64,000 nucleotides of DNA, from contig NZ_JABFBC010000001.1 in assembly GCF_013093415.1 (NCBI RefSeq), positions 1,426,001 to 1,490,000 of the forward strand, in the 5' to 3' direction. The notes under the pieces were generated by a model. It saw only the letters and a list, made by a program, of their open reading frames with translations, was not told the origin of the DNA and did no database searches. A program made the position numbers and the translations under genes. The DNA is from Halovulum dunhuangense (GTDB lineage: Bacteria > Pseudomonadota > Alphaproteobacteria > Rhodobacterales > Rhodobacteraceae). Positions 60,155 to 62,758 of the stretch are shown one piece after another; the first letter of the stretch is position 1, and each line of letters starts with the position of its first letter.

Positions 60155-62758
60155 ATGGATGACCGGCTGACAGAGACCCAGATCGAGGCGCCGCTCTCGC
60201 TTGCCAAGGCGGGCGGACACGGCGATCGTTACGGCGCGCGGGCAGACCGGATGGGCCGGATGGCGGCGCTGGGCCTGCCGCTGCCGCCGGGTGTGGTTCT
60301 CGATTTCGCCACCGTTGCCTCCATCGCCGAAGGCGGCCCCATTCCCTGCATCCCCGATCCGATCGGCCCGATCCTCGCGCTGCGCGCTTCGGCCGGGAAC
60401 CGGCGCTGGGGCGGGCCGCAGTCGATCCTGAACGTTGGCCTGAGCGACGCGACGCTGCCCGCCCTGATCGACAAGATCGGCGCGCGCGGCGCGCTGGAAG
60501 CATATCGCCGCGCCATCCGATCCTACGCGGTGCGGGTCGAGGGGATGGACCCCGAGGATTTCGACAACCTGCTCTATGACCAGATGAAATTCGCCTCGCG
60601 GCTGGGCGAGCGCGATCTGGAGGCGATCGTCGCCGCCTCGAAGGCGCTTTACGAGGATGAGACGGGCGCGCCTTTCCCGCAGTCCCGCGACGCCCAGATC
60701 GAGGGGGCGCTGCGCGCCATGGCGCGCGAATGGAACGCCCCCACCGCCCGCATCCTGCGCGAGGCGAACGGCGCACCGCCCCATGCGGGGCTGGCGCTGA
60801 TCGTGCAGTCGATGGTGTTCGGGCTGGGCGACAGCCGCTCGGGCGCGGGCAGTTTCCAGCCGGTGGACAGCTCGACCGGGGACGCGGCGCCCACCGGGCG
60901 CTACCTGCCCGATGCGCAGGGCGGCGATGCCGGGCGCGGTGTGCGCACGCCCCACATGATCACCGAGGCCGAACGCGCCGAGGCGGGCCAGACCCTGCCC
61001 GCGCTGGAGACGCTTGAGCCCGCCGCCTTCGCGGCGCTGGTCGATGGCGCGCAGACCCTGACCAGGGGATTCGGCGACACCTACGAGATGCAGTTCACCG
61101 TGGAATGCGGGCGGCTCTTCATTCTGGACGCCGAACCGGTGCGCCGCTCCTCGCGCGCCGCCGTGCAGATCGCCGTCGACTTGGTCGAGTGCGGCGTCAT
61201 CGGCCGCGAGACGGCGATCCTGCGCATCGAACCCCGCTCGCTGATCGAGACGCTGCATCCCCAGGTGGACCCCAGCGCGCGGCGTGACATCTTCGGCACC
61301 GGCCTGCCGGCAAGTCCAGGTGCTGCCACCGGCACCATCTGCTTCTCGCCCGAGGCGGCGATGGCGCTTCACGCACAGGGAGAGCCCGCGATCCTCGTGC
61401 GGGTGGAAACCAGCCCCGAGGACATCCGCGGCATGCACGCGGCCGTCGCGGTGCTGACGGTGCGCGGCGGCATGACCAGCCACGCGGCGGTGATCGCCCG
61501 AGGCCTGGGCCTTCCTTGCGTGGTGGGCGCCTCGGACCTGCAACTGAGCCTGAAGGCAGGCGAGCTGCGCGCCCGCGACGGGCGCGTGTTCCGGCAGGGC
61601 CAGCGCATCACCGTCGACGGCACCAGCGGCGAGGCGCTGGCGGGCGCACCCGCGATGGTGCCGGCGGTGCCCTCGCCAGCCTTCGGGCGGCTGATGGACT
61701 GGGCCGACGAGATCCGCGAACTCGGCGTGCGCGCCAATGCCGACACGCCCGCGGACGCCGCCATGGCCCGACGCTTCAAGGTGGACGGCATCGGTCTTTG
61801 CCGCACCGAGCACATGTTCTTCGAGGGCGACCGCATCACCGTGATGCGCGAGATGATCATGGCCGAGACCGTCGAGGAGCGCATTGCCGCGCTCGACCGG
61901 CTGCTGCCAATGCAGCGCGCCGACTTCGCCGCCCTGTTCGAGACGATGCAGGGCCTGCCGGTCACGATCCGCCTGCTCGATCCGCCGCTGCACGAATTCC
62001 TGCCCCATTCCGAGGAAGAGATGGCGGCACTTGCCGCCGCCACCGGCCTGCCGCTTGCCCGCGTCATCGCCCGCGCCGATGACCTGCGCGAGTTCAACCC
62101 GATGCTGGGCAAGCGGGGCGTGCGACTGGGCATCACCATGCCCGAGATCTATGACATGCAGGCGCGCGCGATCTTCGAGGCAGCCTATGACGCAGGCAGC
62201 CGGACGGGTGCGCAGGTGATCCCGGAAATCATGATTCCGCTGGTCAGCGCCAACCGCGAGGCGGAACTCGTGAAGGCGCGGGTCGAGGCGGTCGCGGGGG
62301 CGGTGATGGCCGAGCGGGGCGGATCGCTCGAATACCATATCGGCGTGATGGTCGAGACGCCGCGCGGCGCGCTGCGCGCGGGCGATCTGGCGCGCTCGTC
62401 GCATTTCCTGAGCTTCGGGACCAACGACCTGACGCAGATGACCTATGGCCTCAGCCGTGACGATGCCGGGCGCTTCATGCGCGACTACGTCCAGAAGGGT
62501 GTCTTCCCCGAGGATCCGTTCCACTCGCTCGATATCGAGGGGGTGGGGGAGCTTCTGCTGATCGCCGCGAAACGCGGCCGCGCGACGCGGCCCGACGTGA
62601 CGCTTGGCCTGTGCGGCGAACATGGGGGCGACCCGGAATCGATCCGCTTCTGCAAGGTGGCGGGCTTCGACTACGTTTCCTGTTCGCCCTTCCGGGTGCC
62701 GATCGCGCGGCTTGCGGCGGCCCAGGCGACCATCCTCACCCGCAATTCCGCGCGCTGA
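60155..62758 (+). CDS. ppdK: Pyruvate phosphate dikinase-like protein with altered ATP-binding region
   Basis: 867 residues, close to PPDK length (about 875-890). The central phospho-His H443 (RGGMTSHAAVIARGLGLP) and the C-terminal PEP/pyruvate barrel (GIGLCRTEHMF, VMVETPRGAL, SFGTNDLTQM, catalytic C820 in LGLCGEHGGDP) are intact. The N-terminal ATP-grasp part differs: canonical RSGAxxSMPGMMDT is replaced by RASAGNRRWGGPQS, and the TRNPATGE site reads QPVDSSTGD. Function of the first half-reaction is therefore doubtful. It starts 62 bases after glyS without a clear ribosome site. Confidence 0.82.
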   Translation: MDDRLTETQIEAPLSLAKAGGHGDRYGARADRMGRMAALGLPLPPGVVLDFATVASIAEGGPIPCIPDPIGPILALRASAGNRRWGGPQSILNVGLSDATLPALIDKIGARGALEAYRRAIRSYAVRVEGMDPEDFDNLLYDQMKFASRLGERDLEAIVAASKALYEDETGAPFPQSRDAQIEGALRAMAREWNAPTARILREANGAPPHAGLALIVQSMVFGLGDSRSGAGSFQPVDSSTGDAAPTGRYLPDAQGGDAGRGVRTPHMITEAERAEAGQTLPALETLEPAAFAALVDGAQTLTRGFGDTYEMQFTVECGRLFILDAEPVRRSSRAAVQIAVDLVECGVIGRETAILRIEPRSLIETLHPQVDPSARRDIFGTGLPASPGAATGTICFSPEAAMALHAQGEPAILVRVETSPEDIRGMHAAVAVLTVRGGMTSHAAVIARGLGLPCVVGASDLQLSLKAGELRARDGRVFRQGQRITVDGTSGEALAGAPAMVPAVPSPAFGRLMDWADEIRELGVRANADTPADAAMARRFKVDGIGLCRTEHMFFEGDRITVMREMIMAETVEERIAALDRLLPMQRADFAALFETMQGLPVTIRLLDPPLHEFLPHSEEEMAALAAATGLPLARVIARADDLREFNPMLGKRGVRLGITMPEIYDMQARAIFEAAYDAGSRTGAQVIPEIMIPLVSANREAELVKARVEAVAGAVMAERGGSLEYHIGVMVETPRGALRAGDLARSSHFLSFGTNDLTQMTYGLSRDDAGRFMRDYVQKGVFPEDPFHSLDIEGVGELLLIAAKRGRATRPDVTLGLCGEHGGDPESIRFCKVAGFDYVSCSPFRVPIARLAAAQATILTRNSAR

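Follow-up and report, generated by a model that had tools for sequence, protein, structure and literature searches.

The window analysed here, a stretch of DNA of 64,000 nucleotides to which all coordinates refer unless a contig is named, carries a PPDK-like gene (60155..62758, + strand; 867 aa; ORF, coordinates and frame confirmed) whose product, annotated as a PPDK, probably has a function different from the one that its name implies. The protein belongs to a variant in which the PEP and histidine residues are kept and catalytic residues of the ATP-grasp domain are exchanged, and this variant is a trait of a whole family, which we take as Rhodobacteraceae in the wide (GTDB) sense, rather than the peculiarity of one protein that an earlier note on this DNA had seen in it. 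From the residue changes, their spread, the synteny and the selection, all of which are directly observed, we infer the loss of one half-reaction, the survival of the other and the gain of a new role: PEP would phosphorylate the histidine, the ATP/Pi reaction would be gone, and the phosphate or the phospho-state would serve another acceptor or a regulatory purpose, a reading that we consider likely. The warning in the earlier note that it is unsafe to call the protein a normal PPDK is well supported.

Results

Residues were numbered as in Clostridium symbiosum PPDK, anchored on PDB alignments, and compared between 66 canonical PPDKs and 108 variants (the window protein, 14 named records and 93 proteins from genomes of the family). 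One more sequence, L075, was first counted as a variant and then dropped because it is a fragment with canonical motifs; it is left out of the 108, of the domain tallies and of the omega estimates. The His443 loop and the Cys820 barrel motif, described beforehand as intact, are present together with the other PEP-site residues that were checked: His443 of the window protein (61481-61483, + strand) is His455 and Cys820 (62612-62614, + strand) is Cys831, both found in 108/108 variants, as are Arg561, Asp620, Glu745, Asn768, Asp769 and Glu833. Arg617 is kept in 107/108, the remaining one having an unreadable residue, and His834 in 107/108, with a single exchange to Gln. The window protein itself has equivalents of His455, Arg561, Arg617, Asp620, Glu745, Asn768, Asp769 and Cys831.

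In the ATP-grasp domain, Thr253, Glu279, Asp321, Glu323, Gln335 and Arg337 are invariant in 66/66 canonical proteins, and the window protein has exchanged all of them together with Lys22, keeping Arg92, Arg135, Gly254 and Asp280; the intact set of PPDK ATP-grasp catalytic residues is thus not found in it. By residue tally, catalytic Lys22 (K in 65/66 canonical proteins, with 1 gap) is Arg29 in the window protein (60239..60241, + strand) and, among the 108 variants, R in 102, K in 5 and a gap in 1. Thr253 has become Ser in 80/108 variants and Ala in 23/108 (Ala231 in the window protein); Glu279 is Arg in 90/108 and still Glu in 3 (Gly257 in the window protein), the Arg being found in 82/82 of the variants with a DPDWGGP or WGGPG motif, for which we coin the label late-type; Asp321 is Gln in 88/108 and Asp in 3 (here Glu311); Gln335 is Asp in 105/108 and Gln in 0/108 (here Asp325); and Arg337 is Val in 82/108 and Arg in 1/108 (here Glu327). 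Glu323 is kept in 100/108 variants and is Gln313 in the window protein, where Gln313, Asp325 and Glu327 lie in one stretch (61091..61135, + strand; residue tally). Gly254 is kept in 108/108 variants and Arg135 in 105/108. Some of the exchanges, such as Lys to Arg and Thr to Ser, are conservative.

These results refine the claim that both arginine-containing ATP-grasp motifs have been replaced. The replacements stand, RASAGNRRWGGPQS for VRSGARASMPGMMDT and QPVDSSTGD for TRNPSTGE, but in the first motif it is Arg96 and the MPGMM loop that are lost, and Arg92 persists as Arg77 of the window protein (in LALR; 60383..60385, + strand), being R in 66/66 canonical proteins and 108/108 variants. Catalytic Arg337 lies outside the two motifs of the note, where FLQTR reads ILDAE here, and is lost (E327), so that the alignment proposed there as a check on the ATP-site arginines recovers one and confirms the loss of another. 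The changes given above for Lys22, Thr253, Glu279, Asp321, Glu323 and Gln335 had not been noticed, nor had those at the docking positions, Arg219 to Thr197 and Glu271 to Arg249. Arg95 and Glu324 of Flaveria PPDK, which we equate with Arg92 and Glu323, are directly involved in ATP binding according to the accessible part of PMC5507339, and nucleotide binding of some kind may therefore persist in the variants.

Over whole domains, we counted positions fixed in canonical proteins (≥95%) that are fixed to another residue in the variants (≥90%; 95% for the late-type) or have become variable (<70%). Fixed switches number 18/339 in the ATP-grasp domain, 2/127 in the His domain and 3/363 in the PEP domain; for the late-type group of 82, the same domains have 32, 1 and 2. 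Newly variable positions number 30 in the ATP-grasp domain, 5 in the His domain and 10 in the PEP domain; of the 30, the two foremost lie at a ragged N-terminus, and partial relaxation would also give these 30. The exchanges go beyond chance, since the main ones recur in 108 sequences and a class-level sample showed no variant in other families.

The phospho-His domain of PPDK swings between the two active sites, and residues on which it docks have changed as well. Arg219, R in 65/66 canonical proteins, is Thr197 in the window protein (60743..60745, + strand) and T or S in 106/108 variants; Glu271, E in 65 and D in 1 of 66 canonical proteins, is Arg249 (60899..60901, + strand) and R in 105/108 variants, the same exchange as in PDB 2R82. 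For the triple mutant of 2R82, Lim et al. are said to have found in 2007 that the PEP half-reaction alone survives. Two of the three positions changed in that C. symbiosum mutant (R219E/E271R/S262D), in which the His domain rests at the PEP domain according to the available text of PMC5371819, are those altered in the variants by the loss of Arg219 and the exchange of Glu271 for Arg; position Ser262 is variable among the variants and was left uncounted.

An AlphaFold2 model of the window protein (mean pLDDT 90.5, pTM 0.86) finds its best structural match in 2R82 (Z 49.7, rmsd 4.7 over 839), against Z 43.0 and rmsd 6.4 over 707 for wild-type 1dik. A late-type model (pLDDT 86.5) is best matched by Flaveria 5jvl_C (Z 48.2) and 5jvj_B (Z 47.4), followed by 2R82 (Z 44.7) and 1dik (Z 43.6). 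Both models thus match best crystals whose His domain sits at the PEP site, which lends weak support to a loss of docking, because wild-type plant PPDK crystals also place the His domain beside the PEP domain (PMC5371819, as far as its accessible text goes) and the comparison is one without a folded canonical control.

Three domains can be laid out along the protein: the rebuilt ATP-grasp domain (residues 1-339; 60155..61171, + strand), whose fold aligns to PPDK and to the ATP-binding domain of RPH, the His (swivel) domain (residues 378-504; 61286..61666, + strand; Pfam PF00391) and the PEP/pyruvate domain (residues 505-867; 61667..62755, + strand; Pfam PF02896). The full-length match to the PPDK equivalog model TIGR01828 scores 876.3 bits, over the cut-off of 843.45, and an automatic pipeline would therefore name the window protein PPDK; having passed the NCBI equivalog cut-off, it would be misnamed. 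Among four relatives, two early-type proteins also exceed this cut-off (885 and 876) and two late-type proteins fall under it (787 and 836); the canonical L019 reaches 1343 bits. Pfam PPDK_N (PF01326; ATP/AMP-binding) gave no match in the window protein even at E up to 1. In alignment A1 (15 variants and 26 canonical proteins) it matched 28/41 rows, so that at least two variants still match it. The models for Enzyme I (TIGR01417, 102 bits) and PEP synthase (TIGR01418, 125 bits) score the window protein under their cut-offs of 341.7 and 739.75, respectively.

The reading frame starts about 60 bases 3' of glyS (57924..60092, + strand), identified by profile match and locus comparison as the ancestral neighbour of ppdK. 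Among loci with enough flank, glyS lies at most 2.5 kb upstream in 60/67 variant loci vs 20/58 canonical ones, and the canonical ppdK of G054 and of many other lineages occupies the same slot. Downstream lies a cell wall hydrolase gene (Hydrolase_2, PF07486, by Pfam match; 62983..63960, + strand), a same-strand neighbour within 2.5 kb in 71/72 variant loci vs 4/60 canonical loci. Synteny made the hydrolase a candidate for a variant-specific partner; the candidate was rejected, and the adjacency gives no evidence of partnership, because G054, which is canonical, and two basal variants share the order glyS - ppdK - MeaB-like GTPase - hydrolase. The MeaB-like GTPases between ppdK and hydrolase score 229 and 211 bits on TIGR00750, under its cut-off of 240.75. 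Further upstream in the window, a DUF6446 gene (56878-57318) lies between glyQ and glyS and was matched also in 7/7 further family loci searched; an isochorismatase-family gene (57269-57916) precedes glyS here, and none was found in the 10 variant loci whose upstream sequence was long enough.

We then surveyed 295 genomes of the family, scoring the best 3 candidates per genome with matches ordered best first, and read the variant motifs in 108 proteins out of 282. Among the matches listed, the window protein as query found some match in 292/295 genomes, at E 1e-100 or better in 283/295 (counted by eye; one of them the canonical G054), the match in the other 12 being weak, fragmentary or absent. 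Three near-complete genomes, G094, G127 and G131, showed no long match to the window protein: in G094 and G127, the hydrolase comes after glyS and no ppdK match separates the two, and in G131 glyS was not found either, which may just mean that the locus is missing. When the query was a canonical protein, again among the matches listed for the 295 genomes, G054 scores 958 bits and all others in the family at most 840; by its scores, G054 is the one family genome with a canonical PPDK seen. The gene for that protein (L115, L153) sits behind glyS, and its long branch adjoins the variants.

A quick tree was built from the C-terminal half, with the ATP-grasp columns excluded and 59 hand-picked rows (31/108 variants and 28/66 canonical proteins including G054). 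In it the variants form one group, set apart by a branch with support 90 (not starred), and G054, a long branch of unsure placement, joins next (99, starred). No variant was seen in the 380 class-level genomes of other families: in this sample of 385 genomes, 5 of the family score 417-515 bits and the others at most 169, and the 15 non-family loci that were fetched all have the canonical LQTR motif. Sensitivity has a limit here, in that the basal variant L125 scores 147.5 on a comparable profile, under some canonical proteins (up to 174), so that a similarly diverged variant outside the family could be missed. One side finding concerns Microvirga zambiensis, which has two canonical ppdK loci, L026 and L038, on different contigs. 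The closest named relatives of the window protein fall in Rhodobacteraceae, Pseudooceanicola, Yoonia, Flavimaricola, Marivivens, Boseongicola and Loktanella, and it is on these names that our assignment of the family rests. NCBI places Yoonia litorea and Pseudooceanicola nitratireducens in Paracoccaceae, and Dinoroseobacter, Phaeobacter and Roseobacter in Roseobacteraceae; the GTDB-sense family of the surveyed genomes presumably covers the genera named on both sides. A search of titles and abstract openings in the open-licence literature found no account of a PPDK variant of this kind.

The rebuilt ATP-grasp domain is under purifying selection. Nei-Gojobori dN/dS over pairs of 78-98.5% identity with dS of at most 2 (177 variant and 179 canonical pairs, which are not independent) gave a median omega of 0.185 for the ATP-grasp domain and 0.118 for the His and PEP domains in the variants, and of 0.180 and 0.164 in the canonical proteins. 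The median ratio of omegas, ATP-grasp vs the rest, is 1.52 in variants and 1.13 in canonical proteins, so that the rebuilt domain is constrained, but relatively less so than in a real PPDK. Between the window protein and that of a sister genome of the same genus, omega is about 0.47 for the ATP-grasp domain and about 0.26 for the His and PEP domains; the window's own lineage is therefore looser.

The PPDK regulator acts on the phospho-His form of the enzyme. This regulatory protein (PF03618) was found in 12/295 family genomes and not found in 283/295, the 12 being G054 (canonical), the window's genome (G000:C1:317498-318265, by profile match) and ten others. The full variant locus is present in the window's genome and in 9/10 of the others; these ten are all early-type, and none belongs to the 82 late-type. 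Nine of the 12 have no PPDK_N match and G015 has a match of 47 positions only, the window's genome having PpsA and G054 its canonical PPDK; so the searches show, in nine genomes, no client of the regulator other than the variant. Taken with the regulator's action on phospho-His, this suggests that the histidine may still be phosphorylated there, from PEP. In the available part of PMC8100219, the regulator is described as occurring in all bacteria with PPDK and, where PPDK is missing, as likely to control PEP synthase. In the window's genome, PpsA could be its client.

A second canonical ppdK, which the earlier note had proposed looking for, was not found in the window's genome. A separate PEP synthase, PpsA, is present (TIGR01418, 1067 bits; cut-off 739.75), together with pyruvate kinase and ATP-PEPCK, so that the organism need not rely on the variant for either direction. 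A missing pyruvate kinase was considered as an explanation and rejected, the gene being present.

Discussion

The variant would be the family's descendant of ppdK, in which the ATP/Pi half-reaction was lost early and the PEP/pyruvate half-reaction was kept. As the intact residues suggest, PEP would phosphorylate His443 with release of pyruvate. Because Arg219 and Glu271 have changed, the phospho-His domain would no longer dock productively on the old nucleotide domain, and as a result would neither take phosphate from ATP nor make ATP from AMP and PPi. The rebuilt ATP-grasp domain would be conserved for a new purpose, the binding of another acceptor, an effector or a partner protein, and rather than making PEP the whole would then likely transfer phosphate from PEP or sense the PEP/pyruvate state. 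The earlier note had offered a partner, a regulatory role or another phosphate donor; the first two fit best and the third is less favoured.

That the protein is still a working PPDK, its nucleotide pocket re-tooled by compensation, for instance with the role of Arg337 taken over by the Arg that replaces Glu279, seems to us unlikely. Arg92 (108/108) and Glu323 (100/108) are retained, the exchanges of Lys22 for Arg and of Thr253 for Ser are mild, the Arg at Glu279 is found in 90/108 variants (82/82 late-type), omega is low and the window protein exceeds the TIGR01828 equivalog cut-off; yet Gln335 and Arg337, invariant in the 66 canonical proteins, survive in 0/108 and 1/108 variants, the window protein itself has no Glu323 and carries Gly, not Arg, in place of Glu279, the docking residues have been exchanged and the regulator was not found in 283/295 genomes. 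Flux data also weigh against it: as far as the available portion of PMC2761930 tells, 13C flux from pyruvate to PEP was zero in D. shibae and P. gallaeciensis, both with an annotated ppdK, under the conditions studied, on glucose. In R. denitrificans this flux was weak and ppdK expression low (PMC2749216, accessible part). Against our own reading, a flux-balance model of D. shibae has PPDK active from PEP to pyruvate in all states, according to the accessible text of PMC3789786. The bearing of these data on the variant rests on the presumed membership of D. shibae, P. gallaeciensis and R. denitrificans in the family.

The same absence of pyruvate to PEP flux on glucose in two roseobacters (PMC2761930, same portion) and the changed docking residues also speak against a rebuilt domain that uses another phosphoryl donor or acceptor (PPi, polyphosphate or another NTP) and still interconverts pyruvate and PEP; the domain is conserved and the late-type group has several new invariant basic residues in it, but no specific-ligand signature was seen, and we give this idea little credence. 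Least of all do we believe in a relic in decay that owes its survival to its position behind glyS. The gene is evidently dispensable in G094 and G127, where the hydrolase follows glyS with no ppdK match between, and the ATP-grasp domain evolves at an omega of about 0.47 against the sister genome and, in the variants, faster than the rest of the protein (1.52 vs 1.13 in canonical proteins); against decay stand the matches at E 1e-100 or better in 283/295 genomes (by eye, among the matches listed, one being the canonical G054), an omega of about 0.18, PEP-site residues kept in 108 proteins and new motifs fixed in 82.

If the protein of this family is unable to use ATP, then roseobacter metabolic maps, which run pyruvate to PEP through the annotated ppdK, including in a proposed mixotrophic CO2-fixation route (PMC2761930, available portion), are wrong at this step, and the missing flux is explained. 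The variant would also offer a testable case of a two-site enzyme turned into something else by keeping one half. Going beyond the PEP-phosphorylated histidine protein favoured above, one may tentatively see here a PEP-dependent histidine phosphotransferase, or a sensor of PEP/pyruvate, of a new class that arose a single time, in this family, and whose nucleotide domain became a domain for binding an acceptor, an effector or a partner; we hold the chance of this to be somewhat short of even.

Known systems help to place the variant. Canonical PPDK (EC 2.7.9.1; TIGR01828; Clostridium symbiosum, Rhizobium) shares with it the full length, the three domains, the His and PEP sites and the slot behind glyS, whereas in the variants the ATP-grasp catalytic and docking residues are exchanged and the regulator is usually not found, and in the window protein Pfam PPDK_N was not detected. 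Enzyme I of the phosphotransferase system resembles the variant in that PEP phosphorylates a His on a mobile domain and the His and PEP domains are homologous (window model vs 2hwg: Z 29.8 over 401; identity about 27%); its N-terminal part differs, serving HPr binding. The engineered PPDK of 2R82 shares with the variants the exchange of Glu271 for Arg and the loss of Arg219, and is the best match of the window model; unlike them, it was made in the laboratory with only three changes, and the variants have Thr or Ser rather than Glu at 219 and a variable position 262. By analogy, VadK (Rv1127c) of Mycobacterium tuberculosis comes nearest as a precedent: it descends from PPDK, carries the annotation PPDK and, in the part of PMC13400623 available, is described as a regulatory histidine kinase without PPDK flux by 13C. 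The likeness lies in the descent from PPDK and in the conserved phospho-histidine, in VadK with a regulatory role; the difference is that of a mirror image, VadK keeping the ATP and His domains and having no PEP domain (PMC13400623, same part). Should the new-class reading hold, the variant could perhaps, at a little under an even chance, be regarded as nature's counterpart of the uncoupled 2R82 mutant and as the mirror image of VadK.
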